Of a DNA stretch of 64,000 nucleotides, positions 10,660 through 58,290 are shown in pieces. Below the pieces are notes generated by a model. That model made no database searches and was not told the origin of the DNA. It was given only the letters and a program-made list of their open reading frames with translations. The translations under genes and the position numbers were made by a program. The first letter of the stretch is position 1; every line of letters begins with the position of its first letter. The DNA is from Lineus longissimus (taxonomy: Eukaryota; Nemertea; Pilidiophora; Heteronemertea; Lineidae): contig NC_088308.1 of NCBI RefSeq assembly GCF_910592395.1, positions 4,898,001-4,962,000 on the forward strand. The letters run 5' to 3'.

Positions 10660-10825
10660 TTCCAAGTCTGAATAATTGTGCGTATACTACGTCCATGTTG
10701 ATCCGGTTCCGACCTATTAAATTGTTTCTATTCACAACCAGCCAGGTGTGAATAGAAACAATTCAACTAAATACGAACTCAATCTATTCGGACGTAGTCT
10801 ACACACTTGTTCAGATTTAGGCGGA
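10660..10825. repeat. palindromic hairpin element (MITE-like)
   Basis: The centre is a perfect 17-bp inverted repeat (AATTGTTTCTATTCACA and its complement) around a 10-nt loop at about 10741. Outside it the arms stay complementary with mismatches: ACTACGTCC near 10688 pairs with GGACGTAGT near 10790, and the similarity continues a further 20 bp on each side. Arms are therefore about 75 bp. Such a long decaying palindrome with no coding content is typical of a MITE; no clear target-site duplication was found. Confidence 0.6.
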
Positions 10826-21900: not shown

Positions 21901-22568
21901 CGTTTTTATATCATACGATCTTCTTTTCACCTGCGCACGTAACTAGTAAGTAACAACCATAATAGGCTTATTTTGCAGTATACAAAAGCCATTAGGAAGT
22001 CAACGCGCGTAATCAGCCCCGTCTTGATAGTTGACGTCATAAACAACGATAATTGATTAAATTGTATCATCACAGACACGTGTACATGTAAGAAAGGACG
22101 CTGCACTTATCCTTCAAGCCAGGTCTGTGTTCTCGTCTCTGCGGCCTGGTGTGGACAGATATCGTTTTTCTTTCGTAGTTGCAGCATAATCTTTCTGAAA
22201 CGTCAGGTAATCTTGAGAACGAGATCAGGCAATGTTGATCAAAATAAATAGTGATTATCTTCAAGAAATAAGAGGTTGAACCTTCTTTAACATTTTGATG
22301 TACATGTTTCTAACTATTGTCTTTGTTTTTCTGACATCGCATATTGCCATTTTGAACTACTGCTGTCCAATGCCTGACCAACAGTGATCTTTTCAGTGCT
22401 CTGAAAATCCACTGGCTTGTTTTGAGAGTCAAGAGGAACTATTATAGCCATGGTACAATTGTCGCCCGAACAGACAACTGCTGGCAGTACATAAAAGTGC
22501 ACACATAGGCTATGATTGTACCACTTTACCTCCCCAGATCAGATTTGGTTTCGAACTACTCACCTGAG
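15979..22568. other. long gene desert
   Basis: About 6.6 kb of AT-rich sequence with no exon I can defend on either strand. It holds scattered TACATGTA palindromes (18816, 20985) and short A/T runs. Any exons of a spliced gene hidden here would be small. Confidence 0.35.
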
Positions 22569-22713
22569 GGTCCAGTTGTTCAAAACAAGTTTTGTCCCTA
22601 ACCCTGGCATTAACCCAACCTGACGTTATCTCCTTCAGTTCAGCCCTTAGACTTCATGCCAAGTTAAGTTAACGCCAGCGTTAGTGACAAAACTTGTTCT
22701 GAACAACCGGGCC
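22569..22713. mobile_element. 145-bp MITE with terminal inverted repeats
   Basis: The left end (GGTCCAGTTGTTCAAAACAA) and the complement of the right end (GGCCCGGTTGTTCAGAACAA) match over about 45 bp with few differences, including a shared GTTTTGTC(C/A)CTAAC block. The element is flanked by CTGAG on both sides (22564-22568 and 22714-22718), a 5-bp target-site duplication. It has no coding capacity; superfamily not assigned. Confidence 0.75.
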
Positions 22714-23218
22714 CTGAGGAGAAACAAACTCGATGAAGTTGTACATAAGAAATAGTTGGCCGATAGTTTTTAAATAAATACCCGGCCTCCGGTTATCGGA
22801 AATGTTTTTTATTGAAAAAAAAACCCATATGTCTGTGACATACTGGCTTTTATCATAAAGAGGGCTCTCGCATCCATGATTGCGTATACTTTTTGTTTCA
22901 TGACACTCAAAGATCTAATAAAAAAGGGAAACGTCAAAAAATTGCAATTCGCTGAGCGTGATTCGGATAGGAAGCTTATTGCTGAGTCAGCTCAAGCAGT
23001 TCTACCTGTCATACCAGTCATGATCAATAGATTTTTGACACTGTGATCCGCTTGCAGCTTTTTTATCGTTATTATTACCATCAAGTAATGAGATGTATTC
23101 CAACATGCCACGGTTACTGTGAAAATTCATGAATAACCATCATCCTGTCTAAAAGTAACAATAGGTGCGACAGATTTAATTCGATACTCGCATTGCAGTT
23201 TTAACATGTAAGTTAAAA
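22714..23218. other. intergenic, nothing recognised
   Basis: No gene, repeat or motif I can support. Confidence 0.3.
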
Positions 23219-26414: not shown

Positions 26415-27644
26415 TTATAACGGGGTCGGCTCACTCTCTTTTTCGTGGTAACGATAACAATCCATCCGACACGTCCACAGCGGAACGATCTTCTTCAAAA
26501 CCTTCCTAAATCGTCTAGCAGTCAGACAATACACGAAGAAGTTCACAAACGAGTTAAAGGCTTGAGTCAAGGTTGAGATTATGAACAAGACGAAGTTTGC
26601 TTCATGTCCAGCGCGTGTTTTCTGTCGCATCCCAACCTCATTAGACCGCTCCCACTTACTCCAAATGATAAAGTAACTTTCGGCAACTTTGGGAAGCTCA
26701 CAGAGGACAAACACTATAGCTATGATCACAAGCATAACTGTCGCGAAGGAACCCCGGTCGACCTCGCTCGAGTTCCGAGACAGGAGAGACCGGGCTGTCC
26801 GCGCACGTTTCAGCACCAGGATGATCCTGAAATTCAGGATCAACACAATGAAGACGGGGAGAAGCAAGTTCATCACACTGTCAACACTGTAGTAAGTCAC
26901 GTTATACACCAAGTTCGAATTTAAGCTACTCAGGCTGAAGGCAGCAATCTTCTGGCGGTGACTGAGCGTGAAGCTTGTACCGACTGTGGTGAACTGCATG
27001 AAAGACGGAACATTGAAGGCCACAACGTACAGGAAGAGTAGCGCTAGGATCCGCGCGATCACGGACACGCGACAGAATCGCGACATGTTTAGCGGGTAGT
27101 AGAGTGCGACGTAGCGGTCTACTGTGACCATCGCTACCATCCAGACGGACGCATCCCTTGCGACCTCCATGATCCCCTTGAAGTAAGGCAGCACCCGTGA
27201 AAGGTACTGGAGGTAGAGGCACAGATGTCCCAGAGCATGAAACCAGCTGTATAACGTCCAAGTGAACAGATTACTCAGTAAGAACACACTGTCCGCTATG
27301 GCTAACATCTGAATCAGGAACGTCGTGGATGAACGTTGAGGCATTCTGGAGAAGACCACGATACTGATGATATTTGCAACGATTCCAACGATACAAATTA
27401 CAGCAAGGACACAACCCAGCGCAATGAAAATCGTATACGTGTAAGGATTTTCTATCCCACCACATTTTGTTGGCAAATTCACCTGCGAGAAGTTCAAGTG
27501 AAAGTTGCGAACCGTTATATTGGAAGAATCATTTGACTTGATAGTCTTCCAGACGAAGTGGCCGAAGTTAAAGTCACCGAAACCGGTCCTGCTCCATGGC
27601 CCGGAAGAAGTAGTTGTCTCGTTTAGCTCAACACGGCCCATCAT
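26415..27644 (-). CDS. orphan class A (rhodopsin-like) GPCR, 409 aa, intronless
   Basis: A single open frame with a plasma-membrane receptor layout. The N-terminus of about 65 residues carries NDS, NIT and NFS sequons and is followed by seven hydrophobic segments. TM1 has GIVAN (Asn1.50), TM2 has LAIADS (Asp2.50), TM3 ends in DRY, TM6 has CELP (Cys6.47, Pro6.50), and TM7 has NFFVY in place of NPxxY. The tail is short and basic (RRFRKVLKK). Spacing back from DRY places Leu where the conserved Cys3.25 should be, and ECL2 also lacks a cysteine, so the usual disulphide is absent. The closest style is the invertebrate neuropeptide (FMRFamide-receptor-like) group, but the ligand is unknown. GC content is clearly above the surroundings, as expected of coding DNA. 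Start is the first of two adjacent Met codons. Confidence 0.9.
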   Translation of the reverse strand: MMGRVELNETTTSSGPWSRTGFGDFNFGHFVWKTIKSNDSSNITVRNFHLNFSQVNLPTKCGGIENPYTYTIFIALGCVLAVICIVGIVANIISIVVFSRMPQRSSTTFLIQMLAIADSVFLLSNLFTWTLYSWFHALGHLCLYLQYLSRVLPYFKGIMEVARDASVWMVAMVTVDRYVALYYPLNMSRFCRVSVIARILALLFLYVVAFNVPSFMQFTTVGTSFTLSHRQKIAAFSLSSLNSNLVYNVTYYSVDSVMNLLLPVFIVLILNFRIILVLKRARTARSLLSRNSSEVDRGSFATVMLVIIAIVFVLCELPKVAESYFIIWSKWERSNEVGMRQKTRAGHEANFVLFIISTLTQAFNSFVNFFVYCLTARRFRKVLKKIVPLWTCRMDCYRYHEKESEPTPL

Positions 27645-30600
27645 GCTAGGTGATGATGTGATAATATACTGGAATAACTAGTGTTGGACACTCTGACCCC
27701 ATGTAATCCGTTAACAGTTTTTAAAGTTTTTAAAGGCTATCAGAGTCCATAATGAAACAGCTTATTTCGAAGTGCTACGGTTATGAACTAATGACGAACT
27801 CCTTTAATTTTCCTTATACGGCTACAACTCTCTTCAAAGAGTCTACTGGTACATTGTACTCATTAATAGAAGAGTGGGCATTCTATCCTATTTTATCCAT
27901 ATAACACGCAACACCGTGTTATACTTCCTGTAGTATCGAAAGAAGGCAATCATATGTTTTATTAATACTGCAACACTTGGCACAATCTTCCCGATGTAAC
28001 TCCTTATAACGAACGCACATTCACATATCTTCATGTAATAATTCACTGTCTTCCACAAGACCAAATAACCTCTTTTTGGATCCTACATCATGAAAATCTA
28101 TAATCAATCACGAAACGTATTGTTTTGTCAAATGTTGCGAAGCTGCATTAAGATAAGGCGAAGCAATGACCACAAAACCATTCGTTAATATACAGAAGTT
28201 ATTGATCGACGGTCGTCTCAATGTTTTGTGGCTACCCAGGAGACGAGGGCACTGTATCTTATTATAAATCAAGTGAATCTGATGAAAAAATGCCCTTGAC
28301 CTGCTTTCCTATCATTCCATTCTAAGGTACACGTTTATATATTATATTAATCCAGATAACTTCGCTGAGAATTGTCGAATATGAAGTTCTTGACTGTCAT
28401 CATTCAAGTATCATCTGCTTATCCAAAATTTCTCTCCAGGTCTAAAATGAAGGTCATCTACTACAACGAAACCCTTAAACAAAAGTCTAAGAGGAAGTTC
28501 ACCCACATGCACCCGATGTAGTTCCACACGGAAAGCTTGGTTGTACATGTAGTTTCTTTTCTTCGCAAAATGACCTATCCCTGATCTGAACAACCTGCTG
28601 CCTTTAAACTTTCAAAAGTATTTTGGGTAAAAAAAAGATGTGGTAATCTGAGGCTTCAAAATACGCCTTAAATGCAATGTGAAAATCGTCGATTTGTCCG
28701 AGAATTTCCTGGTGGGTTTTCAGTTATAACCGTGACAGCGAATACTCATTGTTAACTAATAACTGATTTATCAGTTCAAATCACACAAAAATTGTTGCGC
28801 TGTGTGGTTGATTTCACAGTTTTGAAGGTTATTAACAAATAAATTGAATGTATCCTGGCGTGCCTGATATCATTCGAAGGTATTCCGTCTTTGAGATCTA
28901 GAATCGTCCCTGGTGCAGCAACACGAATTACTACCAATTTCCGAGATGAGTAACAGGCTTCACAGACTTTAACGAATTTCCTTATACACACTCAATATCA
29001 TCTTTTAATGCCACAAACAAAAATATTTGCTCTCAAATTCAAATATAGGCACGATAGCAATGTATTTGGTGACTTACCCTAAGGAACTACGAGTTTGTAA
29101 TCCAGTTTGTTTTTGCGTATACCTCTTATTGTCCTGCATGTGAAAGAGATAGCGAAGAATTACTACATTTTCCGTATGTTTGTTTCTAATTTTGAAAGGA
29201 TCATTCTGTAGTTTTGCAAGCTAATGCAGCTAAATTTGAATGTTAAATACATTTAAAAACTTATTATTATTATCATCAGAAGCCTGTGTGAAATCCTTTA
29301 CTCGAAATCCAAAAGTTTACGATTCCTTAAGTCTTCATTCAAATTTTGCAATCTCCAGTCATAATCAATGTATAATCCTCTGACAAATTTTGATGAACAA
29401 CAAATTAATCTCTTCTGCGATGACGAGTGCTTAAAGCAATGACGACGACTATAAGACTGTTTGGGAATATCCTAGCAGCGCGACCTCGTTCCGACCAGCT
29501 CCATGTAACATCTGCGCTAAACGAGCACCATCTCATTCATATACCACATTCATTTCACCCTGGGTTTCTGGATTGGTTGGTTACTTCAGTGACGTCAACC
29601 TTTCTGCAATACATCCCTAAAAACAACAATAGAAATGATGACCGATTGACTGTAACATTGATCAAAACACAATCCTGCACCACCCAATTGTTTTTTCTCA
29701 ATCTCAGCGACGCGACATGTTGCTTCATGTATTTACCTTCAAATGTAATTAGCAGTCATCCATCTTGAATTCGTGAGATCTTGCCTAATGTCGATTGTAT
29801 AAGGATCGTACATTTTATCAACTAGAACCTCCCCCTTTCGGTTCTGCAACCACCTGACGAATTCACCATTACAAAAGCTCATGAAAATGATTCATTCATT
29901 ATTGTATTCATGATTTCGGAAGTGGACCGGAAGTCTCTTGTGACAGGTTCTTTTCTGGCGCCTACGCCAACAAATCGGGATTGAGGGTTTCTTATACAAC
30001 AGGAATAATTCGAAAGGCTGATTGACAGAGCTGAATATCTCTTAATAAATCGCTGCATGTCTATGGACATGATAACATGTCTACGCACTTTTCACCCAGA
30101 GTCTGAATTGATGAAACCAACACGATAAAGCAAACACAGTCATTAGGAGAATGGGCAAACCTTAAAGCCAAATGAAAATTTGATTCGTGTTTCCATCTGT
30201 TGCTCGGAAATCTGCGGAGATACTTTGAGGCTTGTGATTCGAGTGAGACTTGGCAAGGATGATCACCATTGACGACACTTGGAGAATGGACAACAGCAGG
30301 ATTGAGAGCTTCTGATTGGCCAATATACTAACAAGAAACTTTTTGAAAAGTCACGGAATGTGGTTCCGAAATAAAAACCAATTGTCGAAAACAAAACAAT
30401 AACACAGTTACATTCATTTGGCATTATCCAATCCTGAATCAATGAAACCAAGTAATCTCATTTATTAGCCGAACGGGCAAACCCTCATGGAAATTACAAA
30501 TTTATTGGATCGCCGCTACAACCTGTTGCTTGACATTAACGCTGGCATTAAAGATAGATTACAGTAGTATGGTCACTAAGAGCAAGTAATCCCTAAAGCT

Positions 30601-42495: not shown

Positions 42496-42612
42496 CACGC
42501 GGCAGGCCTGTATTCGTTGTCACAGGCGATTGAGAGATTTCACACAGGCGAGTGAGAAATACCTGTTGTGCGGTAGGGGTATATTCGTTGTCACAGGCGA
42601 GTGAGAGACCTC
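42496..42612. repeat. tandem duplication of about 72 bp
   Basis: The block GTATTCGTTGTCACAGGCGA recurs 72 bp downstream as ATATTCGTTGTCACAGGCGA, with related flanks. It is followed by a 24-bp tandem duplication (CCCATTCAATT at about 42630 and 42654) just outside the left end of the foldback element. Confidence 0.7.
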
Positions 42613-42661: not shown

Positions 42662-42667
42662 TTTTAA
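42662..42667. other. left target-site duplication of the foldback element
   Basis: TTTTAA directly before the terminal ACAGTCTATT. The same six bases follow the right end at 54455-54460. The uninterrupted version (TCAATTTTAATGCTCTC) is preserved at the 3' end of the neighbouring GPCR paralogue near 56234. Confidence 0.8.
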
Positions 42668-42944
42668 ACAGTCTATTAAATGGATTGGGATTTATTATTT
42701 CTGGGATTGGGCATATGTCTACCAACACCAATACCGGTACTGCCCCTATCAAATGATCTGCGACCCACGGTCAAAGTGGAACAAAAGTTCATCACCACGG
42801 CTCTTACAGTCCATAAGGTCGACTCCCGGTACAAAATAAGATAAAACTCCATGACAATGGTCGTAATCACTAAGAATTTCTAGGCCCGGTACACATTGAT
42901 AGATAGCGCTAATTACCCCAGCAGTAAAATAGGCCTAGATAGTG

Positions 42945-43270
42945 ACCCGGGTCGCTACGTAGCGCCCCGGGACAGATTGTTTGGAGATAGGTTTGTCCCG
43001 GGGCGCTACGTAGCGGCCCGGGACAGATTGTTTGGAGATAGCATTGTCCCGGGGCGCTACGTAGCGGCCCGGGAAGGGTTGGATGGAGTTGGCGTTATAC
43101 TGGGCCGCTCCGTGATAGGCTGTCGGGAGATTGCGTTGTACCGGGGCGCTACGTAGCGGCCCGGGTAGGGTTGGATGAAGTTTGCATTATACCGGGCTGG
43201 TCCGTGATATGTTGTTAGGAGGTTGCGTTATACCGGGTCACCCGGGTAGGGTTGAGTGGAGATGTGGTAT
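42945..43270 (+). repeat. tandem array of GC-rich palindromes, left arm
   Basis: Units of about 51 bp (some near 41) each centre on CGCTACGTAGCG, a perfect 12-bp palindrome, bracketed by CCCGGG or close variants. They are linked by (A)CAGATTGTTTGGAGATAG or GGGTTGGATGGAGTT spacers. Four units keep the palindrome; the inner ones decay. The repeated RYVA peptide in the frame across it is a consequence. Position beside the terminus suggests subterminal protein-binding repeats; that is inference. Confidence 0.85.
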
Positions 43271-43360
43271 ACCCGGGACGGTTTGTTCGACAACGATGCT
43301 ACCTGTGGTTGGAATAATTTTATTAATGATCACCTTGGTTTCTTTTGATGATTAGTTAGC

Positions 43361-44232
43361 CTAAGACCGCAGTGAGGTCTCTAAAATGCGCTACCGGTTT
43401 CACGACAAATCATCCGAATTCCGTAAATATGATATCAAATCGCATGCAGACACAAGCTAGACTTCAGACATACATAATTCTGAAGCCTGGATAAAAGATA
43501 CAATGTACATGTGCATGTAGTACATATATATTGGCCTGGCAAAGTCATGAAGTATAGGCCTTGCTTCAGAGATGTTATGGACATATTAGGTCATTGTCAT
43601 CTGTTCTTTCCTCCGTCTGGATTCTCTCTTGGGATGAGGCACTGCTCTTGATAGGTCTACTACATGCCATCTCAACCAGGATAGGTTTTACCAGGCCTAC
43701 CCCCTCAGAGGAGACTATCTATGCAACTGCAATGACGAATAGGGACATCTTCTAGAAGGATTCTCCTTTGGCCTGCCCCCTCAGAGGAGACTATCCCTGT
43801 AACTGTAATATCGACCAGGGACATCTTCTACAAGGATTCTCCTTTGGGTTGGGGCACTCCGCCCTTGATAGGCCTTCGTCTGTTACGGATCAACTCTGAA
43901 ACAGTTTCAACTCTGAAAGACACCAACTCAACTTTGAAACTGCATCTCCGAAAGTATGAAAGCCTATGACCGCAGTGGGTTCTCTAAAATGCGCTACCGG
44001 TTTCACGACAAATCAACCGAATTTCGTAAATATGATATCAAATCGCATGCAGACACAAGCTAGACTTCAGATAAACATAATTCTGAAGCCTGGATAAGAT
44101 AAAAGATACAATGTACATGTGCATGTAGTACAAATATATTGGCCTGGCAAAGTCATGAAGTAATAGGCCTCGTTTCAGAGATGTTATGGACATATTTATT
44201 AGGTCCTTGTCATCTGTTCTTTCTTCCGTCCG
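43361..44232 (+). repeat. 260-bp direct repeat in two copies, left arm
   Basis: Copy 1 (43361-43622) and copy 2 (43963-44232) share GACCGCAGTG, the block with CTACCGGTTTCACGACAAAT, GCATGCAGACACAAGCTAGA and ATTGGCCTGGCAAAGTCATG in the same order, with a few substitutions and small indels. The mirror pair is at 53500-53765 and 52742-53010 in the right arm, so the duplication predates formation of the inverted structure. Confidence 0.85.
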
Positions 44233-45005
44233 TTTCATATTTTCTTATTGATTTTGAAACCTTTTGTCCTTATATGTTAATGTTTTTGGAACAAAGAGAT
44301 TGATACCCTGTTCACGGATGTGTAACAGCGCACTACTCCATGACTTGTGTAGGCCTACTACTGTACGTGCATGCGTGTGTGCACATACAGTCTGTTGATG
44401 TACACACACGCTGCAGTGTATGCCCTATTCCTAATTGACTCCTTCCCGCGCTCGTCACCAAGGCAACTCCAATTAGACATAAGGAAGTCCAGGCTTCATT
44501 CGTAGATGTTCGTATCAAAATTGCCGAGCACTACCGAAGTTGGATGGGATATAGCAATGCAGCAGGCGGGTGGGAGAGGGGGGGACTCTTATAAATAGGC
44601 TAGGCCTAGAGATAGGTTGTGTCGTGACATGTCCTCGGCGACTGTTGTCTCATCTTTAGGCCTACTCTTGGAATAAGACACCAGCTGGGTGAAACACTAG
44701 GCCTACACCCCCTGCCTTATGAAGTATATAGGCCTAAAGGTTGTGACAATCCTCACTGTTAATTGTCTCATCTCTCCGAACTATGGGTTGTGACTTGTCT
44801 CCAGCGACTATCCTGATAGGCTAGGCTACTAGAGGACACCAAATTTGGTCCTGCCTAATATTATTAACATCATTATCCGCATCATCATCATCATCATCTT
44901 CCGGTAGGCCTAAATGGTAGGGCGCAGTTTGCGCGTTATTAACCATGAAGTAGTTGCTCATTACGCAGACGGTGCACAGACGTTTATAAAATCTTGGTCG
45001 GTGCG

Positions 45006-45421
45006 ATTAAAACGATAAAATCTGGTGGTTAAAATAGTTGTGGTCTACGCGGAGCTGGAGGCTAGGGGTCTTGGCAGATGTTGTCGCTTCTGGGAGGGTG
45101 TTCCAGCTTCTGATCGTTCTGTGGAAGAAGGATGATGCCTCTTGCTGGGTGGTATCTGTCCAGGCCTCGGGTCCTTGGGTCGCCCATGGTGATGGAGTCT
45201 GGGGCGACGAAGTCCACGAGGCTGTGCCGGATATTGTAAAGCACTGTAGTGATGCCTTCCTTCTCTCTTTGAGTGTATCCCACTGTAGGGTTTGGAGTTG
45301 GCGGGTGACAGATCCTGGTCTTCGGTCTCTGTATTCATTGGTGACAAAAAAAATCGCGCTGCTCTTCGTTGAATTCGCTCCAGTAGGTCGGTTGTGACTG
45401 CCCTTTTTACGACTATCTGCA
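45006..45421 (-). pseudogene. dead non-LTR retrotransposon reverse-transcriptase tail, left arm
   Basis: Read on the minus strand, three frames successively give the C-terminal pattern of CR1/Jockey-type reverse transcriptases: VTTDLLERIQRRAARFF, then VLYNIRHSLVDF, then SSFFHRTIRSWNTLPE. At least two frameshifts separate them. The same shifts occur in the right-arm copy. No endonuclease or catalytic RT core is present. The open frames here in either direction are by-products. Confidence 0.7.
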
Positions 45422-46200
45422 TCTTAGTAAGGACACCTTGGTCTTGCCTATGAAGGACACTGTCAGCACCACAGCAGCAGTATGTTGTTCTTTGCGATCT
45501 GTCTCATCTTGGTAGGCATAGCCCCCCCCCCCCCCCCACAGGACACATTGGTTCTGTCTATGATATCATAGGTTGTGACATGCCCTTTGCAACTATCCGT
45601 CTCATCTTGGTACGCGTAGCCCCCCCCCCCCCCCCCCCACAGGACACATTGGTTCTGTCTATGATATTATAGGTTGTGACTGTCCTTTGCGACTATCTGT
45701 CTCATCTTGGTAGGCCTAGCCCCCCCCCCCCCCCCCCACAGGAAACATTGGTTCTGTCTATGATATTATAGGTTGTGACTGTCCTTTGCGACTATCTGTC
45801 TCATCTTGGTAGGCCTAGCCCCCCCCCCCCACAGGACACATTGGTTCTGTCTATGATATTATAGGTTGTGGCTGCCCTTTGCGACTATCTGTCTCATCTT
45901 GGTACAGCATGACACATTGGTCCTGTCTATGGATATTATAGGTTGTGGCTGCCCTTTGCGACTATCTATTGGTTCTGGCTATGATATTAAAGGTGGTGAC
46001 ATGCCCTAGCTTTGCGACTACTGTGTCATCGTGGTGCAACAGGACACCTTGGTTCTGTCTATGATATTATATGTCCTTTGCGAGTCTGTGGTCTCATCTT
46101 AGTATATAGAACACGACACCTTGCCCTGCCTTTTATCAAGGGTTTACATGTCCTTTGCGACTATCTGTTTCATTTTGGTACAATAGGACACCAATCTTTC
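45421..46200. repeat. about 100-bp minisatellite with poly-C tracts
   Basis: Units of about 93-100 bp contain GGACACATTGGTTCTGTCTA, a TATGATAT(T/C)ATAGGTTGTG block, CTTTGCGACTATCTGTCTCA and TAGGCCTAG, ending in 10-18 C then ACA. Four clear copies (from about 45540, 45640, 45740 and 45834) are followed by shorter ones that lack the C run. About the first 220 bp is also in the right arm; the rest is unique to the left side of the loop. Confidence 0.85.
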
Positions 46201-46880
46201 ATACCACATTATGTATGAGCATGACATTTTTGAATGACGAATCATCTTCACAACGAATAACAAGTAGGGCCTTAAATGTCATTTATTTGTCTTTCATTTG
46301 GTGAAAACTTAATCTAATACAGTCATACAAAGTTATGTTATAAGCAGAATACTAAAATGCTATTTTCAGAAGATTTTGTATCTGGGCTGAAGCATAAAAG
46401 AGGTGCAAACAATCATCAGTATTTCTACAGAAAAACTCCATTAAAGTCATCTTTTATACACTACAGTGCATGCCTAAACCTGTCCAAGATGCTAGCCCAA
46501 AAGAGCCTATAATAATACACGCTGCTTGTTTCAAGGGAAGCTGGTTCCAACAAACACAATAATTAGGCCTATATCCAATCTTAATTACTACAACACAATC
46601 GCGTGGCATACACATGGGTGAATTCAGGCCTTTTATGTAATCCCCACGCGTTTATTAAGCGGTCGGGGTGAGGAACTGGGTTGCTTATTGGGGGTCGTGT
46701 GTTGGCGTCCTGTACTATAGGCCTACCTAGCTATAGGGTATAGGCCTACATGGGCCCCTACTGAACATTATTTCGTCTCTCCTCATAGGCCTATGCTTCA
46801 TGATGTATCTGTAACAGCCCCATGGGCATTAACAAGATGAAATAAATTGAATTGTACTATGCTTTACTATAAGAAAACAC
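46201..46880. other. foldback loop, left spacer
   Basis: AT-rich spacer between the minisatellite and the Harbinger transposon. No coding sequence recognised; several TAGGCCTA motifs around 46725-46795. Confidence 0.4.
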
Positions 46881-47181
46881 TTGGGGCCGAACTTATAAAG
46901 CGTGTTTTTCTTTTGTTTAACTTGGACCTGTTTAAGCCTAAACATTTGTAAGACTAGAGGTAGACATGTCCTACAAAACACTGGTGTTCATCGGAAATTT
47001 GAACCACAGAAGGACGTCTGTCCAGCTAGACTAGTCCAGCTGGTGATGCAATGTGAAGCACAGATCGCATTTCCTTTGTTCAGACGATCATGTAATACTT
47101 GGTGAATGGGGTTGACCTTAACTGAACGCCTTTGCACAGCATTCAGCCCATAGGCCGTAAAGTGACGTACATCGCTCGGCA

Positions 47182-48375
47182 ATGTCGGGAAGAAAGAGAA
47201 GTGAGAATTTCACTCCGGACCAGCGGAGAGCTCTAATTGAGCTGCTGAGAGCTCATGAAGATATCGTTGAAGACAAGCGAACGGATGTCCAGGCAAACAA
47301 GAGAAAACAGGCAGCATGGGAGAAGATAGCAGGGGAAATGAATGCCTTATTTCCCGAACGTCCACCGTGCGCATCGAAGGACCTGAAAGACCTTTGGAGA
47401 CGAATGAAGATCAAGGCCAAGGCCGTAGCCCGTGAGAAAAAGATCGACCTTGGTAAAACTGGAGGGGGGACGGCCACTGTAGGGGAGGTAGATGACGAAA
47501 TCCTTGCCATTCTGAATATCATACCTGGGGATCTGCAACAACTACATAATCCTGTGGATGACGATGCCCCTTCCGTTCCTGTAGTTGCTGATGACCTCAT
47601 TGATGAACCCTTACCATCAACAAGCGCTGACGATCTGGGAAGGTAAATATTGGACATCTGTTTGAATTAACTTTCATAAAAAACAGGCAAAGGTATATGC
47701 AGCAAAAACGAAGTGAGATTTACTTATACTGAAATACTATCCAAATGACATCAACTCATCCCTTGAAAAATAAACTACTTTCCGAAATAGAAAAGAAATA
47801 AAATAACAATGCGAAAAGTGATTAGTTATCATGATACTTTATTATGACATTCTATTGGGTTGTTATTAGGCCCGCCATTCTCCACAGTCGTTATAAAAAT
47901 AAAAGATATCCTTCATTATTTTTCAGCTGCACTCCAGCCGCGGAAACATTCCTGAAAGATGTGGATGGGGAAGTTGAATATACTGGAGGTAACTACGATC
48001 TTCACAACAGCTCTGCCGCAACCCCCAGGAAACCACGTTCTAGTAAAAGGTAAGCAGTGAATGGAATACAACGATGTATCAGTCAAATCTAATCACTTTA
48101 CACTATGGACCTCCAACACTTTGGAGTTCCTGACCACACGCGTTGCTAAATGACTTTGCATTCTTCTTTCCAGCCTTGAGAAGAGGGCTACCATGTCCGA
48201 TGAATCTCCTGTCTTAAAGAAGACCGACCAAGCACTTGCCTACCTGAAAGATGAACATGAACAAAAAATGAGTTTGCTTAATTTGCAGCAGGCAGCAAAA
48301 TTTAAGAAGCGTGCCTACGAGGCGAAGATGGACTACTACAAGGAAAAAATTCGAAAACACCGCATTGACCTGTAG
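47182..48375 (+). CDS. Harbinger Myb/SANT-like DNA-binding protein, three exons, 261 aa
   Basis: Exons 47182-47642, 47927-48049 and 48174-48375 join in phase 2 each time, with donors GTAAAT and GTAAGC and pyrimidine-rich CAG acceptors. Total 786 nt, intact. The N-terminus (about residues 8-90) is a Myb/SANT-like trihelical domain: FTPDQRRALIELLRAHEDIV, a spaced Trp in AAWEKIAGEMN, and LKDLWRRMKIKAK. An acidic middle and a charged helical C-terminus (AYEAKMDYYKEKIRKHRI) follow. In Harbinger systems this protein works with the transposase, helping nuclear import and binding of the transposon ends. It lies 0.1 kb from the convergent transposase gene. The frame is undamaged, unlike its partner. 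Confidence 0.88.
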
Positions 48376-48509
48376 CCTATGGATGTATCCTATGACATGA
48401 TGAATGAAATAAAGGTTATAAAAACTTACTGGAAGTGCTGTCTTATGAATCTTTGGCGAAATAAGTTGCCTCGTAGGTTAGCTTCATGATGATGCGCTTC
48501 CTCTGCTGG

Positions 48510-50042
48510 CTATCGGCGCATATTGGCATCATCATGATAATCATCTGGAAGTGGATCGTTTCTGCGAATGGCCAAGTTGTGGAGACATGCTGTAGCCATG
48601 ATTATGGCCATATTGTGCTGCAACTAAAAAAATCATGCCAGTTAGTATAACCGATCGCGAACTGGTATCCAAGCAGATAAAAATTCAGGGTTCACCATTC
48701 TGTTGGAAGCCATTACACTGTAAAAAAACGGTATTAGCCCGGCACCGAAAAATTGTATTGACCAGGTCTGAATATCGTAATTTCGTATTCCAAAATGGTA
48801 CCGGAAATTCTGAATACAATTTAGTGGTATTCACTCAAATGTCAATACCAGTTTTTGGTACTGACAGATTCAATACCATTTAATGGTACCAGCTCAGTAC
48901 CAAATTATAGTATCGCCCCAGTACCAAATTATGGTGTTGAGGAAGTCATCACCAAAAATCGGTATAGGTCCTTAATGAATACAAAATTTTGGTGTTGAAC
49001 CCAGCACCATTTTTTAGTATTCAGACGGTACCGTTTTTTCAACAATGTAGGCCAATCGGAGTCCTATGGTATGGTTCAGGTTAGGTGAGGCTTGTAAGCA
49101 TGAGGTCGATGTCAAATATAGGTGAGTGGTGGGGTGAAATTTGTTAAATCTCCTGGATTTACTTACTGAACATCGAAGGGTATTTCCCCTACCAACAGCG
49201 TGGAATCGTCATTTCCAAACCCCAAACGCTCTCTCGACGACCCCTCTTGTCCTCCTTTGGGCTTGATTGTAATTCCGCTCTGCAACGTTTCTTGGTTCAC
49301 GAACCGGAGTCAACATATATCTGGTGCACGTGTATGCTGGGTCACCCAGCAAAATACCCTGGAGCTCTCCTGCTCTGAATCTTTGGCAAAGTCGTGATTC
49401 CTCAAAGATTCTGGAATCGTGCGCAGAGCCGTACCATCTGGAGACGACATTGGTGAAGCATAACTCATGGTCACAAACAAGTTGGCAGTTCAGGCTATAG
49501 TAACCCTTTCGATTCATGAAACGCTGGGCATTAATTCCTCCTGGGTTTGCGATGGGAACGTGCGAACCATCGATAGCACCAATTACACCTGGGAATTGCG
49601 CAATATCGCGGAATCCTTGCTGCACCCTTAGTCGTTCCGCCTGGGTTTCGGGAAAAGTTATGAAATTTCCCTTTCTATCACATATTTCCCTTGTGACTCG
49701 ATGGATAGCTTCGCCGCAGGCCCATTGTGACACACCACAGGTATCTCCAGTGACATGTTGAAATGCACCATTTGCATAAAATCGAAGAGCAATCGCCAGT
49801 TGCAAAAGTGGTGCAAGTGCTTGGTTTCGCCGAGTTGGCCGACGTAGGTCTTCACTGATGAGATCGAGTAGCCATCGAAATGTTTCTTTAGAAATTCGAA
49901 AGCGCCTCAAGAACTTCGGGTCTGACAGTTCCTCTAAAGGATTTTCTCTGTCCCTGAACACCCTCATGCGTCTTCTCTGAATTTCATTTTCATGCTCCTC
50001 TCGTTCGTCTTGTGCAAATTCAAGTATAGCGAGAGCATCCAT
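48510..50042 (-). pseudogene. HARBI1-like DDE transposase with one premature stop
   Basis: Exon 1 is 50042-49167 (ATG at 50042, MDALAILEFAQDE) and ends at a perfect GTAAGT. Exon 2 is 48623-48510, in phase 0, adding LQHNMAIIMATACLHNLAIR and a TAG. Catalytic residues are visible: Asp158 in GAIDGSH, Asp234 in GDPAY and Glu270 in VVERAFG. The family normally continues VWKRRF; here the codon after VWK (278) is TGA followed by CGA, consistent with a CGA-to-TGA transition. Beyond it the frame stays open to the intron. The product would lose the C-terminal helix after the catalytic Glu. The enzyme normally cuts and pastes elements bearing these ends. A frame extending 12 nt upstream begins only with GTG, so the ATG was chosen. 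Confidence 0.85.
48716..49047. mobile_element. MITE nested in the transposase intron
   Basis: Ends CACTGTAAAAAAACGGTA and, inward from the right, CATTGTTGAAAAAACGGTACC form terminal inverted repeats, flanked by TA on both sides. The interior is built of short TACC/GGTA palindromic motifs (GTACCAAATTATAGTA and relatives). No coding capacity. TA duplication suggests a Tc1/mariner-type source. It lies wholly inside the intron between transposase exons, so it did not itself break the gene. Confidence 0.65.
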
Positions 50043-50297
50043 TCTGCCGACCACACGCCGTAACCTCCTCTACATGTATGAATCATAAGCTTAAACAGCT
50101 GCAAAACAAGCCCCCAGGTATGTTTTTCAATTCCTTTGTTATTTAGACACCCTAGTCTATCTTGGATGACAGTTTTAGACACGTCCAAACTAAACATCCT
50201 TCTGTAGTAGCTGTTTATGCTAAACGATAGATTTAGACTTGTCTAGGCGATTTAGACTTGTCTAAGAGAAAAATACCTTTTATAAGTTCGGGCCTTG

Positions 50298-50387
50298 GTG
50301 TTTAATATCTCTGTGAGATACAAAATAATAAACCAAATAATAAACCAAATTGATAATAATCCCGGTACGGTATCTGATTCATTTAGC
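50298..50387. other. foldback loop, right spacer
   Basis: Short AT-rich spacer beyond the Harbinger right end. Confidence 0.4.
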
Positions 50388-50423
50388 CAGAGTCATTCTA
50401 AACAGTTGTTTAGAATGACTCTG
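50388..50423. repeat. perfect 36-bp hairpin flanked by ATTTAGC repeats
   Basis: Arms CAGAGTCATTCTAAACA and its exact complement around a GT loop. ATTTAGC stands immediately outside both arms (50381-50387 and 50424-50430, with a C following each copy or overlapping the arm). The layout is that of a minimal inverted-repeat insertion with a 7-bp duplication. Confidence 0.8.
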
Positions 50424-51339
50424 ATTTAGCCCTGTGGATCCGGTGTAAAAGTAAAAAGTGTCCCCCCTGGAAAAAGTGTCCGGCCCTATTGTATTCTGCA
50501 ATATGGTTCTATAGAGACCCTGACCGTCAATAGCTCAGAGATTGAAGCGCATAATAGAATCCTTTATTCCCGGACATTTTAACCTAGGACATTTTAAACT
50601 TCTCACCGGCATGAAAAAGTTTATTTTTAAACTGAAGTGCTTGTCCCCGAATTATATAATTATTCGAGCAAAGCAAAGTGGGGCTACATCGAGATAGGCC
50701 AACTACTATGACCGCGGGTTACCGGTTGCAGGTCGCCTGTACAAAATAAATAATTGTATACGCCTACTGTGTCCGCAGGTTTTAGCCGGTGCTAGAATAG
50801 CACCACACATAGGCCTATTACAGGTATAAAAAAAGGTATTTTTACAGGCGACCCGCAAACGGCTAAAACCCGCGGACACAGTAGCCTAGACTAGTAAGCC
50901 TACTGGTATAATACCTGGTTTTACCTGTAATATGCCTATGTGCAGTGACATGCCTAGCACCGGCTATAACCCTCGGACACAGAAGACATTATTCATCTTC
51001 TCATCCTCGATCAATTGCTGGCTAAAAAGGCCTAGGCTTAGGCCTAGATGTACATGTATAATAATATACTCTGTCTGCGGGTTTAAGCCGGTTGCAAGTC
51101 GCCTGTACTTAATACTGAAATAACATTCATTTTGAGGAAAGGGGGCCATTATCAAAGGCCCCTTATTTTCAGGTATAAAGCGTACGCATTAGGCTGTCTA
51201 GACTGCTCGACTAAAGCAGCGTCTCAATAGTCCCCGCAGAAACAGGATGGGGTGTATGTTTCAGAGAGAGACGAAACACGCATATCTCCCGGGCATAAAT
51301 TTGTCCCTGGTAGATCGAGATGGCCTTACAAGGACAAGT
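50424..51339. repeat. foldback loop region with CCGGTTGCAGGTCGCCTGTA repeats
   Basis: From about 50700 to 51130 a block (phrases ACTGTGTCCGC, GGTTTTAGCCGG, GGTCGCCTGTA) recurs in both orientations. TGTCCGCAGGTTTTAGCCGG near 50770 pairs with a complement near 50862, with further copies near 50960 and 51070. No coding sequence. The remainder is featureless. Confidence 0.6.
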
Positions 51340-51559
51340 CCTGTGGGGAGGGGGGGGGGGGGCTAGGCCTACCAAGATGAGACAGATAGTCGCAAAGGGC
51401 ATGTCACAACCTATGATATCATAGACAGAATCAATGTGTCCTGTGGGGGGGGGGGGGGGCTAGACCTACCAAGATGAGACAGATCGCAAAGAACAACATA
51501 CTGCTGCTGTGCTGCTGACAGTGTCCTACATAGGCAAGACCAAGGTGTCCTTACTAAGA

Positions 51560-51975
51560 TGCAGATAGTGGTAAAAAGGGCAGTCACAACCGACCTAGTA
51601 GAGCGAATTCAACGAAGAGGAGCGCGATTTTTTTTGTCACCAATGAATACAGAGACCGAAGACCAGGATCTGTCACCCGCCAACTCCAAACCCTACAGTG
51701 GGATACACTCAAAGAGAGAAGGAAGGCATCACTACAGTGCTTTACAATATCCGGCACAGCCTCGTGGACTTCGTCGCCCCAGACTCCATCACCATGGGCG
51801 ACCCAAGGACCCGAGGCCTGGACAGATACCACCCAGCAAGAGGCATCATCCTTCTTCCACAGAACGATCAGAAGCTGGAACACCCTCCCAGAAGCGACAA
51901 CATCTGCCAAGACCCCTAGCCTCCAGCTCCGCGTAGACCACAACTATTTTAACCACCAGATTTTATCGTTTTAAT
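51560..51975 (+). pseudogene. dead non-LTR reverse-transcriptase tail, right arm
   Basis: Mirror of the left-arm relic: VTTDLVERIQRRGARFF, then VLYNIRHSLVDF in another frame, then SSFFHRTIRSWNTLPE in a third. Frameshift positions are the same as in the left arm; only a few residues differ. The relic was therefore already dead when the arms were formed or last homogenised. Confidence 0.7.
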
Positions 51976-52080
51976 CGCACCGACCAAGATTTTATAAACG
52001 TCTGTGCACCGTCTGCGTAATGAGCAACTACTTCATGGTTAATAACGCGCAAACTGCGCCCTACCATTTAGGCCTACCGG

Positions 52081-52105
52081 AAGATGATGATGATGATGAT
52101 GCGGA
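52081..52105. repeat. GAT microsatellite in the right arm
   Basis: (GAT)n-type tract, mirrored as CATCATCAT at about 44880 in the left arm. Confidence 0.7.
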
Positions 52106-53849
52106 TAATGATGTTAATAATATTAGGCAGGACCAAATTTGGTGTCCTCTAGTAGCCTAGCCTATCAGGATAGTCGCTGGAGACAAGTCACAACCCATAG
52201 TTCGGAGAGATGAGACAATTAACAGTGAGGATTGTCACAACCTTTAGGCCTATATACTTCATAAGGCAGGGGGTGTAGGCCTAGTGTTTCACCCAGCTGG
52301 TGTCTTATTCCGAGAGTAGGCCTAAAGATGAGACAACAGTCGCCGAGGACATGTCACGACACAACCTATCTCTAGGCCTAGCCTATTTATAAGAGTCCCC
52401 CCCTCTCCCACCCGCCTGCTGCATTGCTATATCCCATCCAACTTCGGTAGTGCTCGGCAATTTTGATACGAACATCTACGAATGAAGCCTGGACTTCCTT
52501 ATGTCTAATTGGAGTTGCCTTGGTGACGAGCGCGGGAAGGAGTCAATTAGGAATAGGGCATACACTGCAGCGTGTGTGTACATCAACAGACTGTATGTGC
52601 ACACACGCATGCACGTACAGTAGTAGGCCTACACAAGTCATGGAGTAGTGCGCTGTTACACATCCGTGAACAGGGTATCAATATCTTTGTTCCAAAAACA
52701 TTAACATATAAGGACAAAAAATTTCAAAATCAATAAGAAATATGAAACGGACGGAAGAAAGAACAGATGACAAGGACCTAATAAATATGTCCATAACATC
52801 TCTGAAACGAGGCCTATTACTTCATGACTTTGCCAGGCCAATATATTTGTACTACATGCACATGTACATTGTATCTTTTATCTTATCCAGGCTTCAGAAT
52901 TATGTTTATCTGAAGTCTAGCTTGTGTCTGCATGCGATTTGATGTCATATTTACGAAATTCGGTTGATTTGTCGTGAAACCGGTAGCGCATTTTAGAGAA
53001 CCCACTGCGGTCATAGGCTTTCATACTTTCAGAGATGCAGTTTCAAAGTTGAGTTGGTGTCTTTCAGAGTTGAAACTGTTTCAGAGTTGATCCGTAACAG
53101 ACGTAGGCCTATCAAGGGCGGAGTGCCCCAACCCAAAGGAGAATCCTTGTAGAAGATGTCCCTGGTCGATATTACAGTTACAGGGATAGTCTCCTCTGAG
53201 GGGGCAGGCCAAAGGAGAATCCTTCTAGAAGATGTCCATGTTCGTCATTGCAGTTGCATAGATAGTCTCCTCTATGGGGCAGGCCTAGTAGAACCCACAC
53301 CGTGGATGACATGGCATGCAGTAGGCCTATCAAGGGCGGAGTGCCCCAACCCAAAGGAGAATCCTTCTAGAAGATGTCCCTGTTCGTCATTGCAGTTGCA
53401 TAGATAGTCTCCTCTGAGGGGGTAGGCCTGGTAAAACCTATCCTGGTTGAGATGGCATGTAGTAGACCTATCAAGAGCAGTGCCTCATCCCAAGAGAGAA
53501 TCCAGACGGAGGAAAGAACAGATGACAATGACCTAATATGTCCATAACATCTCTGAAGCAAGGCCTATACTTCATGACTTTGCCAGGCCAATATATATGT
53601 ACTACATGCACATGTACATTGTATCTTTTATCCAGGCTTCAGAATTATGTATGTCTGAAGTCTAGCTTGTGTCTGCATGCGATTTGATATCATATTTACG
53701 GAATTCGGATGATTTGTCGTGAAACCGGTAGCGCATTTTAGAGACCTCACTGCGGTCTTAGGCTAACTAATCATCAAAAGAAACCAAGGTGATCATTAAT
53801 AAAATTATTCCAACCACAGGTAGCATCGTTGTCGAACAAACCGTCCCGG

Positions 53850-54177
53850 GTATACCACATCTCCACTCAACCCTACCCGGGTGACCCGGTATAACGCAAC
53901 CTCCTAACAACATATCACGGACCAGCCCGGTATAATGCAAACTTCATCCAACCCTACCCGGGCCGCTACGTAGCGCCCCGGTACAACGCAATCTCCCGAC
54001 AGCCTATCACGGAGCGGCCCGGTATAACGCCAACTCCATCCAACCCTTCCCGGGCCGCTACGTAGCGCCCCGGGACAATGCTATCTCCAAACAATCTGTC
54101 CCGGGCCGCTACGTAGCGCCCCGGGACAAACCTATCTCCAAACAATCTGTCCCGGGGCGCTACGTAGCGACCCGGGT
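53850..54177 (-). repeat. tandem array of GC-rich palindromes, right arm
   Basis: Inverted counterpart of 42945-43270, with the same CGCTACGTAGCG cores and spacers and the same order of decayed units. Confidence 0.85.
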
Positions 54178-54442
54178 CACTATCTAGGCCTATTTTACTG
54201 CTGGGGTAATTAGCGCTATCTATCAATGTGCACCGGGCCTAGAAATTCTCAGTGATTACGACCATTGTCATGGAGTTTTATCTTATTTTGTACCGGGAGT
54301 CGACCTTATGGACTGTAAGAGCCGTGGTGATGAACTTTTGTTCCACTTTGACCGTGGGTCGCAGATCATTTGATAGGGGCAGTACCGGTATTGGTGTTGG
54401 TAGACATATGCCCAATCCCAGAAATAATAAATCCCAATCCAT

Positions 54443-55423
54443 TTAATAGACTGTTTTTAATGCTCTCTTCAACATTGATGAGACATCTTGGCGAAACTTC
54501 TTACAGCCCAAACAATATGTGTAGAAATTAACCGAGGGGTTGAGAAAAGCTAAGAAAACTTCGAACTCATAGGTTATCTTCCTTATCATTGCTGATTTTG
54601 CAGTTAAAACTTGGTTTGGATCCCAGATCAGTTGATCAAATGTGAAGGGAAGGTTGGTCACGAAAAACACTGACGTCACCAGCAACAACATCAGCGTGAT
54701 TTGGCCATCTTGTGATGTTTTACCAGATGCCGTAAGCCTTGACTTCCGTTTCCGGATCTTTTCTTGGATGAGTGTAGTTATAATTGAGATATTGAAGATA
54801 AATATCAAACAAAATGGTGTCGTAAAAAGACCATATGATTGGAGGCCATGAAGCACGCTGTAGGCGGCAACAGGTATAACTGGTAAGAATGTGCAGATTT
54901 CTTTCATAACCAAGGCTGTTTCGTCTACTGTACGGAAACTGTATGGTATCAAAACACTCATTTCTAACATGACAATACACCCAGCGATCATCCGACATCG
55001 TCTCATCGTGCTCCATGACATCACCTTCAAGGGAAATCGGACCGCTAGGAAACGGTCAAAGGTCATGGCCGCTGTCGTCCAATTGGAGAGCCCGTACACG
55101 CAGGTGAAGGCTGCCATGATCGGGCAAACGGCGCTGCCGAATTGTAATAGCATGAATGTTGGATGATAGGCTATCATCGTTCTGATGACGTTATGGCCAA
55201 GGCTAGTGGTATCACATATTGCAAGCATCCTCATGAAGAAACACGTCGTCTGCTTAGAATATTGCGGCTGCTTCAGAACCGAATATATGAGGAGGTTACC
55301 GACCAGTCCTCCGACGATGATAAATGGTGGAAAAACTTTATTCAATGCGAAGAGAATGATGGAAGATATCCTGACCTCTTCTTCTGAGAGAGTGCCTTCG
55401 GCTGTTGTGGTTGCCATCATCAT
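54443..55423 (-). CDS. class A orphan GPCR, paralogue 1, C-terminus altered by the foldback insertion
   Basis: Intronless, 326 aa. Seven membrane segments with GNLL (Asn1.50), LAICDT (Asp2.50), Cys near 3.25 and KEIC in ECL2, DRF in place of DRY, NLPF in TM6 and NPSVNFYTY in TM7, followed by a short basic tail. It resembles lophotrochozoan neuropeptide-type receptors; the ligand is unknown. It is about 90% identical to the next gene upstream (57202-56222), so a recent tandem duplicate. Bases 54443-54454, coding the final TVY and the TAA stop, belong to the terminal repeat of the foldback element. Joining the left flank of the element suggests the earlier tail was LNGT plus stop, similar in length to the paralogue's LSVI. 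The receptor core is intact; the native 3' UTR is now separated from the gene by nearly 12 kb. Confidence 0.9.
   Translation of the reverse strand: MMMATTTAEGTLSEEEVRISSIILFALNKVFPPFIIVGGLVGNLLIYSVLKQPQYSKQTTCFFMRMLAICDTTSLGHNVIRTMIAYHPTFMLLQFGSAVCPIMAAFTCVYGLSNWTTAAMTFDRFLAVRFPLKVMSWSTMRRCRMIAGCIVMLEMSVLIPYSFRTVDETALVMKEICTFLPVIPVAAYSVLHGLQSYGLFTTPFCLIFIFNISIITTLIQEKIRKRKSRLTASGKTSQDGQITLMLLLVTSVFFVTNLPFTFDQLIWDPNQVLTAKSAMIRKITYEFEVFLAFLNPSVNFYTYCLGCKKFRQDVSSMLKRALKTVY
54455..54460. other. right target-site duplication of the foldback element
   Basis: TTTTAA directly after AGACTGT, matching 42662-42667. It also encodes part of the Leu-Lys codons of the GPCR. Confidence 0.8.
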
Positions 55424-56221
55424 GTTAGTTTCCTCTGCTACATGACCAACATCTTAATCAACTCACCAGTATCAGCCTCCACCGCGTTCGTTCCAACATG
55501 TATAGGGCATGTAGGCTTAATATCGGTACTTTCGTCAGATATTAGGAAGGCTGTTTTTTTTTATCTTGAGTTTTTCTCTCAATCACGGACATAAATCATG
55601 TAGACACTGTGACAGTGTTACCCTTTCGCAGCATTGCTGTGTTTGAGCGCCATTTCAACTGATTTCAACCACAGCGCGTTTTTCGTATACATGAACATAT
55701 ACACTTGAAATAAACTTTCCTAATATATACATGTATCAACATTGATTCGAGCTCTCAATGAGTAAAAATGTTTGACAAATTTAGAAATATCGAGAACGTG
55801 TCATACTATGAGGCAGGAAAATACAGTAAAAATCTGATTAATAGGTACCAGCAAGTATGTGCCTCAAGGCAAAATGTCAAATCTGCTGTAGGGCCCACCT
55901 TACAAATTCAAGTAGCAGCCTCTCTCAGACTTACTAGATATAATTGGCGACAAAAAATGGCAGCGATACACGCCATTCGCCTCGTGCAAGCGCCGACGAA
56001 CAATGTCCATGGGAGAGCTGGTGAGATCGCAAGCGAGGGTGTTGCTACTTTGTCCTTCTCAAGCGACAACCTCTCTAGAAATCTCGGAGTGTCCCATCTC
56101 AGGTCAGTGGTTTTACGACGACCGCGCGTCTGGTTGCGCCAGTTGACTTCGTGTCTCTAAGGTTTTTCTCCTCGAATATGTGCAAATCATAACTGCATTC
56201 TTTAATTGCTGGTGTTCATAT
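55424..56221. other. spacer between tandem GPCRs
   Basis: Contains the upstream region of paralogue 1. A block at 55704-55795 (CTTGAAATAAACTTTC, AATGAGTAAA, TTTGACAA, TTAGAA) is shared with 57945-58005 upstream of paralogue 2, so the duplication included 5' flank. The plus-strand 130-codon frame at 55768-56160 has no family signature. Confidence 0.55.
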
Positions 56222-57202
56222 CTATATTACGCTCAATTTTAATGCTCTCTTCAACACAGATGAGACGTCTTGGCGAAACTTTTTACTGCCCAAACAATAT
56301 GTGTAGAAATTAACCGAGGGGTTGAGAAAAAGTAAGAATACTTCGAACTCATAGGTTATCTTCCTTATCATTGCTAATCTTGGAGTCAAAACTTGGTTTG
56401 GATCCCAGATCAGTTGATCAAATGTGAAGGGAAGGTTGGTCACGAAAAACACTGACGTCACCAGCAACAACATCAGCGTGATTTGGCCATCTTGTGATGT
56501 TTTACCAGAAGACGTAAGCATTGACTTCCGTTTCCGGATCTTTTCTTGGATGAGTGTAGTAATAATTGAGATATTGAAGATGAATATCAAACAAAATGGC
56601 GTCGTAAAGAGACCATATGATTGGAGGCCATGAAGCACGCTGTAGGCGGCAACAGGTATGACTGGTAAGAATGTGCAGATTTCTTTCATAACCAAGGCTG
56701 TTTCGTCTACTGTACGGAAACTGTATGGTATCAAAACACTCATTTCTAAAATGACAATACACCCAACGATCATCCTACATCGTCTCATCGTGCTCCATGA
56801 CGCTACCTTTAGAGGATATCTGACAGCAAGGAAACGGTCAAAGGTCATGGCTGCTGTCGTCCAATTGGAGAGCCCGTACACGCAGGTGAAGGCCGCCATG
56901 ATCGGACAAACGGCGCTGCCGGATTGTAATAGCATGAATGTTGGATGATAGGCTATCACTGTTCTGATGACGTTATGGCCAAGGCTAGTGGTATCACATA
57001 TTGCAAGCATCCTCATGAAGAAACACGTCGTCTGTTTAGAATATTGCGGTTGCTTTAGAACCAAATATATGAGGAGGTTACCGACCAGTCCTCCAACGAT
57101 TACAGCAGGTGGAAGAATCTTATTCAAAGTAAAGAGAACAATTGAAGATATTCTTGCTTCTTCCTCAGACAGTGCATCATCGACAGATCTTGTTGTCGCC
57201 AT
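56222..57202 (-). CDS. class A orphan GPCR, paralogue 2
   Basis: Intronless, 326 aa, ATG at 57202 (MATTRSVDDALSEEEA). Motifs match paralogue 1: GNLLIY in TM1, LAICDT in TM2, DRF at the end of TM3, conserved Cys pair, NLPF in TM6 and NPSVNFYTYC in TM7. The tail ends RALKLSVI. It keeps the uninterrupted TCAATTTTAATGCTC stretch at its 3' end, which serves as the empty-site reference for the foldback insertion in paralogue 1. Substitutions between the two are spread thinly, with the N-terminus most different. A cell-surface peptide receptor role is inferred from family only. Confidence 0.9.
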   Translation of the reverse strand: MATTRSVDDALSEEEARISSIVLFTLNKILPPAVIVGGLVGNLLIYLVLKQPQYSKQTTCFFMRMLAICDTTSLGHNVIRTVIAYHPTFMLLQSGSAVCPIMAAFTCVYGLSNWTTAAMTFDRFLAVRYPLKVASWSTMRRCRMIVGCIVILEMSVLIPYSFRTVDETALVMKEICTFLPVIPVAAYSVLHGLQSYGLFTTPFCLIFIFNISIITTLIQEKIRKRKSMLTSSGKTSQDGQITLMLLLVTSVFFVTNLPFTFDQLIWDPNQVLTPRLAMIRKITYEFEVFLLFLNPSVNFYTYCLGSKKFRQDVSSVLKRALKLSVI

Positions 57203-58172
57203 TGTTTCGGAAGTTGCTAATCAAAGGTTCAACAATTACTTATCTATCATGCGTAGTCCTGATCGAGACGGGGAGGGGGGCGCAAGTGAAGCATAAATCC
57301 TTGAGCGCATGGCGCGTGCAGACGCCCTTTGACTGTGACTGGATATAATAAGCGGACATTTACCACTCTCCAAGCAGATCGAATGATATTCTCTCTGCCA
57401 ACACAGATTCCCATTCCACCGTAATGTCCTGGGCGTTGTACAGGCGCATGATGATATTCGAATAACAGAACACACATATAAACCTTATCAATGGTTCGGT
57501 TCTTTAACTACCCTCGGCGCTTTCCTTTACTCGAGAGACCATGTTGTATCCGAAGGCTCTGTTCCACAAGTGCGACGCCCTATCAAATGTTGGCATCATC
57601 ACGTGCTTGTCGTCTTTTGTTGCATCCCCATACAATCAACCTAATGAAATCAGGGGTTCCTCATAAAGATGCCATACAATAGGCTATATCGTCGGTTAAT
57701 CAGCGTACCCTGCATGTAATGGTTACCAAAAATATGAAATGATGTAACTTTTGGACGTCTGCGATTTTGAAAAATGCAAACGTTCATAACAACCCAAAGA
57801 TATATATATATCCAACTAGTCATTAAACACGCATTAAAAAAATTGATGTCTAAAACGGACTTCACCGAATATAATTGATGTCTAAAACGAACTTCGCCGA
57901 ATATAAACGTGCGCATTTGTAAAAACATATCTCATTACTTGTACCTTGAAATAAACTTTCATATACATAGTTCGCAATGAGTAAACACATTTGACAAGAT
58001 TAGAAGTTATTCATAAATCAAATAGACTGGTATATTTAGTGTCAGTGTGGTTGCATGTATAGATTATAAAGTATGCAATAATTACATTCACAGAGCCAGA
58101 GCTCCAACTATTAGTTTGATATAGGACCCGCAGTTCCATGTTGCAACCGATAATGTGGAAACCGAGGCAACC
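57203..58172. other. 5' flank of GPCR paralogue 2
   Basis: Includes two tandem copies of a 34-bp unit (ATTGATGTCTAAAACG-A/G-ACTTC, 57842-57905) and the block shared with paralogue 1 at 57945-58005. That block lies about 740 bp from this start but only about 280 bp from paralogue 1's start. No gene recognised. Confidence 0.5.
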
Positions 58173-58290
58173 CCAACGCATAGTGTACAAACTTTTTAAC
58201 GCATTATGTCCAAACCTTTTGTCGAAACTTTTCCCGAATTGCTACCGGTAAGCTATTCGGGAAAGGTTTGGACGTTATACTATGCGTTGG
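58173..58290. repeat. palindromic hairpin element (MITE-like)
   Basis: CCAACGCATAGTGTA at the left pairs with TATACTATGCGTTGG at the right. Inner blocks TCCAAACCTTT and TTCCCGAAT pair with ATTCGGGAAAGGTTTGGA around a GCTACCGGTAAGC centre. The left arm carries short extra segments. No coding content. Confidence 0.7.

Follow-up and report, generated by a model that had tools for sequence, protein, structure and literature searches.

The foldback elements TU of sea urchin and FB of Drosophila generate target duplications of 8 and 9 bp. Duplications of about 6 bp are made by Polinton, Dada and IS3EU, and the ends of Polinton begin with AG. Harbinger elements duplicate 3 bp, and the target of PIF is CWCTTAGWG. 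Here we compare with these systems an 11,787-bp foldback element from Lineus longissimus, which lies in the last codons of a gene for a rhodopsin-type G protein-coupled receptor (GPCR) and carries a second transposon in its centre. The window, i.e. the whole stretch of DNA that was analysed, comprises 64,000 nucleotides (contig NC_088308.1, positions 4,898,001 to 4,962,000), and all coordinates below are counted from its first letter. We regard it as very probable that a non-autonomous foldback with arms of about 2.85 kb was inserted by cut-and-paste into a TTTTAA of the GPCR gene, and that a Harbinger element was later inserted into its centre.

Limits of the foldback element and its insertion site

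The outer element occupies 42668-54454 and is symmetric. Its terminal inverted repeat is exact over 204 bp, beginning with ACAGTC at 42668 and finishing with GACTGT at 54454, and comparison of the flanks showed that both repeats directly abut a copy of TTTTAA (42662-42667 on the left, 54455-54460 on the right). The inverted arms, their ends and the TTTTAA on both sides had been reported in an earlier note made from the letters of this DNA, and the present analysis confirmed them, the alignable length of the arms being about 2.85 kb. The same junctions can be read in three symmetric ways, each with perfect terminal repeats, namely a duplication of 6 bp (TTTTAA, ends ACAGTC), of 4 bp (TTTA, ends AACAGTC) or of 2 bp (TT, ends AAACAGTC). 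Immediately to the left of the insertion, two 39-bp direct repeats that are 87% alike are found at 42499-42608.

The right end of the element lies inside the open reading frame of the GPCR (54443-55453, minus strand, stop to stop; PF00001, E 2.5e-22), and the last codons of this frame are supplied by the element. As the earlier note had stated, the receptor frame stays open and closes shortly inside the terminal repeat, so that the present tail is KRALKTVY*. A paralogous frame without the element is located at 56222-57220 on the same strand (PF00001, E 9.1e-22). DNA self-comparison gave 93% identity between the two genes (54455-55395 against 56237-57175), with a dN (nonsynonymous divergence) of 0.061 and a dS (synonymous divergence) of 0.245; these values rest on 327 codons, the final four of the alignment being omitted. 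A third rhodopsin-type GPCR frame at 26415-27677 (minus strand; PF00001, E 2e-15) had no match to this pair in the self-comparison.

When the two flanks are joined without the element, the receptor tail reads KRALKLNGT*. The tail of the paralogue, which has TCAATTTTAATGCTC at the homologous place, reads KRALKLSVI*, and the stop falls at the identical codon. Beyond the duplication the joined flank and the paralogue are equal at 10 of 15 bases, a match reached equally well at 118 of the 127,970 window positions (both strands, the real sites included). Judged from this alignment, a true insertion is well supported by the match at the junction, for which the paralogue, not being an allele, serves as a partial empty-site control. 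The earlier claim of an empty site preserved next door is thereby upheld in the logic of the junction, the shared stop codon and the 10 of 15 bases, but what stands next door is a paralogue whose match on the far side is short. By cut-and-paste, the foldback would have entered one of the GPCR genes within its last codons, duplicating TTTTAA, and the inferred final four residues of the receptor, LNGT, would have been exchanged for TVY.

Arms and inner spacers of the foldback

By self-comparison and arm alignment, the left arm extends over 42668-45496 (plus strand) and the right arm, including a short inner array, over 51338-54454 (minus strand). The centre between them, about 5 kb, has no mirror symmetry. 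Over the outer 2,692 aligned bases the arms are distinguished by 11 substitutions and by two indels, one of 142 bp within a stretch of tandem repeats and one of 1 bp. The following 156 bp hold 6 substitutions, and inward of these both arms enter an array of units of about 99 bp, the length of which differs between the two arms. The innermost substitutions are in excess (6/156 versus 11/2,692; Fisher p 1.8e-4), and in 20,000 permutations the values were 0.0002 when the innermost segment alone was considered and 0.015 when a window of 156 bp could lie anywhere. This excess speaks against a single uniform inverted duplication as the origin of the arms, and from it we infer that gene conversion or hairpin-type repair may have kept the arms alike. 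Since the divergence is uneven, arm identity is no simple clock and was rejected as such; the insertion is not dated by it. Of the two further descriptions in the earlier note, neither that of the insertion as datable nor that of it as possibly polymorphic is supported.

The arms are built from several kinds of sequence. Subterminal arrays with units of 51 and 92 bp and a GC-rich palindromic core (CCCGGG..CTACGTAG..CCCGGG) occupy 42946-43237 (plus strand) and are mirrored at 53885-54176. Treated as single-stranded DNA, the left end (42668-43340) gave a good fold (z -6.2 versus 20 shuffles). The arms also contain duplicated modules of about 260-270 bp and a 76-bp array. The list of reading frames showed frame-shifted open frames at 45007-45503 (minus strand), mirrored at 51478-51974, which we take to resemble the C-terminal end of a reverse transcriptase of a CR1/L2-type long interspersed nuclear element (LINE); neither of these frames in the arms matched any family when searched against Pfam. 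The array of about 99-bp units, which has poly-C tracts, is placed at the inner end of the left arm (45497-46180, plus strand; regular copies to 45904, looser beyond), and its shorter counterpart in the right arm at about 51338-51484. The outer element is best pictured as a modular patchwork, in which a probably captured LINE-like fragment is combined with the subterminal palindromic arrays, the duplicated modules and the poly-C array. An origin of the arms from two small elements in inverted orientation was also considered and rejected, since the terminal sequence has no exact copy at the inner arm ends. A scan for the terminal sequence allowing 3 mismatches gave 17 matches versus 10.8 by chance, so weak matches carry no meaning.

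Between the arms and the nested element lie two spacers, 46181-46880 on the left and 50298-51337 on the right, both of which hexamer counts showed to be rich in AGGCCT. This hexamer is found 20 times in the 4,579 bp made up of one arm and the two spacers, versus a mean of 1.3 and a maximum of 5 in 500 first-order Markov simulations. The spacers alone have 5 and 3 copies, where base composition would predict 0.09 and 0.18. The flanks (52,201 bp) have 11 copies versus simulation means of 5.3 and 1.3, and in a scan that covered the left flank in 500-bp steps each window of 4,579 bp held at most 3. In the nested Harbinger element AGGCCT is absent (simulation mean 0.7). Overall, 42668-46883 plus 50298-54454 carry the hexamer, often in the form TAGGCCTA, at about 20 times the density of the flanks. 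The excess in arms and spacers and the lack of it in the Harbinger element suggest that the arms form a single body of DNA together with the spacers, with the TTTTAA duplication as its outer and the Harbinger duplication as its inner limit, and that the Harbinger element is foreign to it.

The nested PIF/Harbinger element

Comparison of repeats and ends placed the nested element at 46884-50294. Its ends, GGGCCGAACTTATAAA and TTTATAAGTTCGGGCC, are complementary at 15 of 16 bases and are flanked by TTG on the left (46881-46883) and on the right (50295-50297), as found by flank comparison. Alternatively, the duplication can be read as 5 bp, CTTGG. The rejoined target AACACTTGGTGTT is near-palindromic (AACAC-TTG-GTGTT).

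Two genes are carried by this element. The first, on the plus strand, is a Myb/SANT-like gene of about three exons (47182-48375; start, stop and splicing judged by eye), the first open frame of which, 47161-47646, matches PF13873 (E 1.1e-13). The second is a DDE_Tnp_4 transposase gene on the minus strand (48510-50042; PF13359, E 7.6e-26; start and splicing judged by eye), consisting of a main exon, 49209-50042, which closes at an in-frame TGA after ...FGVWK, and a second exon at about 48510-48623. The transposase frame has the DDE-like motifs GAIDGSH, SAHDSRI and VVERAFG at residues 164, 215 and 277; which of their residues are catalytic is our presumption. A search of PDB sequences with this frame gave no match at E 0.01. 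Thus the DDE_Tnp_4 domain with its motifs, the Myb/SANT partner, the 3-bp duplication and the short terminal repeats of PIF/Harbinger elements are all present. The earlier note had called the 11.8-kb element unassigned, which stands for the outer foldback; its centre is an ordinary Harbinger element that the note did not mention. Most likely the Harbinger element is a passenger in the outer one, an independent element that would have landed in the centre of the foldback subsequently.

Between the transposase exons, at 48716-49047, there is a possible miniature inverted-repeat transposable element (MITE), flanked by TA and imperfectly palindromic; its outer limits were set by eye, and its inner part is self-complementary. 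Elsewhere in the window, imperfect palindromes at 22560-22722, 10664-10818 and 58221-58273 might be MITEs as well.

Mobility, alternative explanations and comparison with known systems

No transposase of the outer element was recognised, and no frame longer than 77 amino acids was found in the three stretches that were translated (both spacers and 44230-45000). A frame of 82 amino acids, 51211-51459, spans the right spacer and the array. Three of the open frames listed for the outer element were run against Pfam and gave no match at a curated cut-off; one had a match to PF18247 (E 0.022, below its cut-off), and the other two matched no family. Rfam found no family in the window at the gathering score. 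The terminal 22 bases had no exact match in the viral and prokaryote collections, neither of which is expected to hold such DNA. Most likely, the non-autonomous foldback would have been mobilised by a transposase acting in trans and recognising the outer ends.

Several points weigh against the history proposed above or qualify it. First, the autonomous partner of the outer element was not found in these searches. Secondly, the duplication length of the outer element is ambiguous (6, 4 or 2 bp), 6 bp being the longest reading; the identical joined site would also result if TTAA had been duplicated and the ends were unequal by two bases. Thirdly, strict identity of the joined flank with the paralogue beyond the duplication is confined to TCAA, which is counted within the 10 of 15 bases, and the 15-base stretch was chosen after the data had been seen, to finish at the stop. 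Past the end of the gene, the DNA self-comparison gave no further match to the paralogue at E 1e-10. Finally, the innermost 156-bp segment of the arms was likewise picked after the data had been seen. When the left flank was aligned locally to the DNA next to the paralogue, all that emerged was a chance-like match (score 26).

The alternative that survives best, and which we hold possible but clearly less than even, is that the outer element is a degraded, gene-less member of a superfamily with duplications of about 6 bp, such as Polinton, Dada or IS3EU. It is compatible with the insertion of a foldback and merely names the superfamily. The length of TTTTAA fits it. However, no gene remnant was recognised in the three stretches and three frames mentioned, the terminal AG of Polinton is lacking, and fewer than 6 bp may have been duplicated. 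We consider it improbable that the outer element represents a terminal-repeat superfamily, so far undescribed, that targets sites like TTTTAA, and that its AGGCCT-rich DNA originated in a different genome or genome compartment and was transported in one piece between the duplications.

Still less credit can be given to the idea that the outer element is moved by the Harbinger genes as its own machinery, which would make the whole one autonomous element of 11.8 kb with very long arms. The Harbinger transposase is indeed the only one recognised inside the arms, and it is centrally located. Nevertheless, the terminal repeats of the Harbinger element do not resemble ACAGTC, and it is flanked by a separate duplication, TTG (or CTTGG); its target is near-palindromic when joined, it lacks AGGCCT, its transposase carries an in-frame TGA, and TTTTAA differs from the 3-bp duplication of the Harbinger type. 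Equally implausible is an assembly artefact, with arms mirrored by a chimeric palindromic join or by mixed haplotypes: inverted arms that are nearly identical are easily misassembled, but the symmetry halts at a direct duplication on either side, substitutions and a 142-bp indel set the two arms apart, about 5 kb of unmirrored DNA lies between them, and the joined flanks give a receptor tail of the length found in the paralogue.

The insertion of a foldback followed by that of a Harbinger element is, in our reading, clear, well bounded and fairly ordinary transposon biology. Its interest lies in a legible history, comprising the LINE-like fragment in both arms, the uneven arm divergence, the insertion into a receptor gene of which only the final residues were altered and the nested Harbinger element, and the exact ends with a probable target can be used to find the autonomous partner.

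Compared with known systems, the outer element resembles Polinton/Maverick in its long terminal repeats and, on the longest reading, in a duplication of 6 bp, but its ends are ACAGTC, AACAGTC or AAACAGTC rather than AG, and no Polinton gene appeared in the few frames tested. The nested 3.4-kb element is like PIF/Harbinger in its DDE_Tnp_4 and Myb/SANT genes, its 3-bp duplication and a target near CWCTTAGWG; it is unlike them in the in-frame TGA before the last transposase exon, in the MITE-like insertion between the exons and in having TTG in place of TTA. With respect to foldbacks, the outer element has long inverted arms with tandem repeats and a target duplication at both ends. This duplication, at most 6 bp, is shorter than the 8-9 bp of TU and FB. 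As in TU of sea urchin and FB of Drosophila, the inverted arms are long and modular and contain tandem repeats, little or no coding capacity is recognised, and the centre is heterogeneous.

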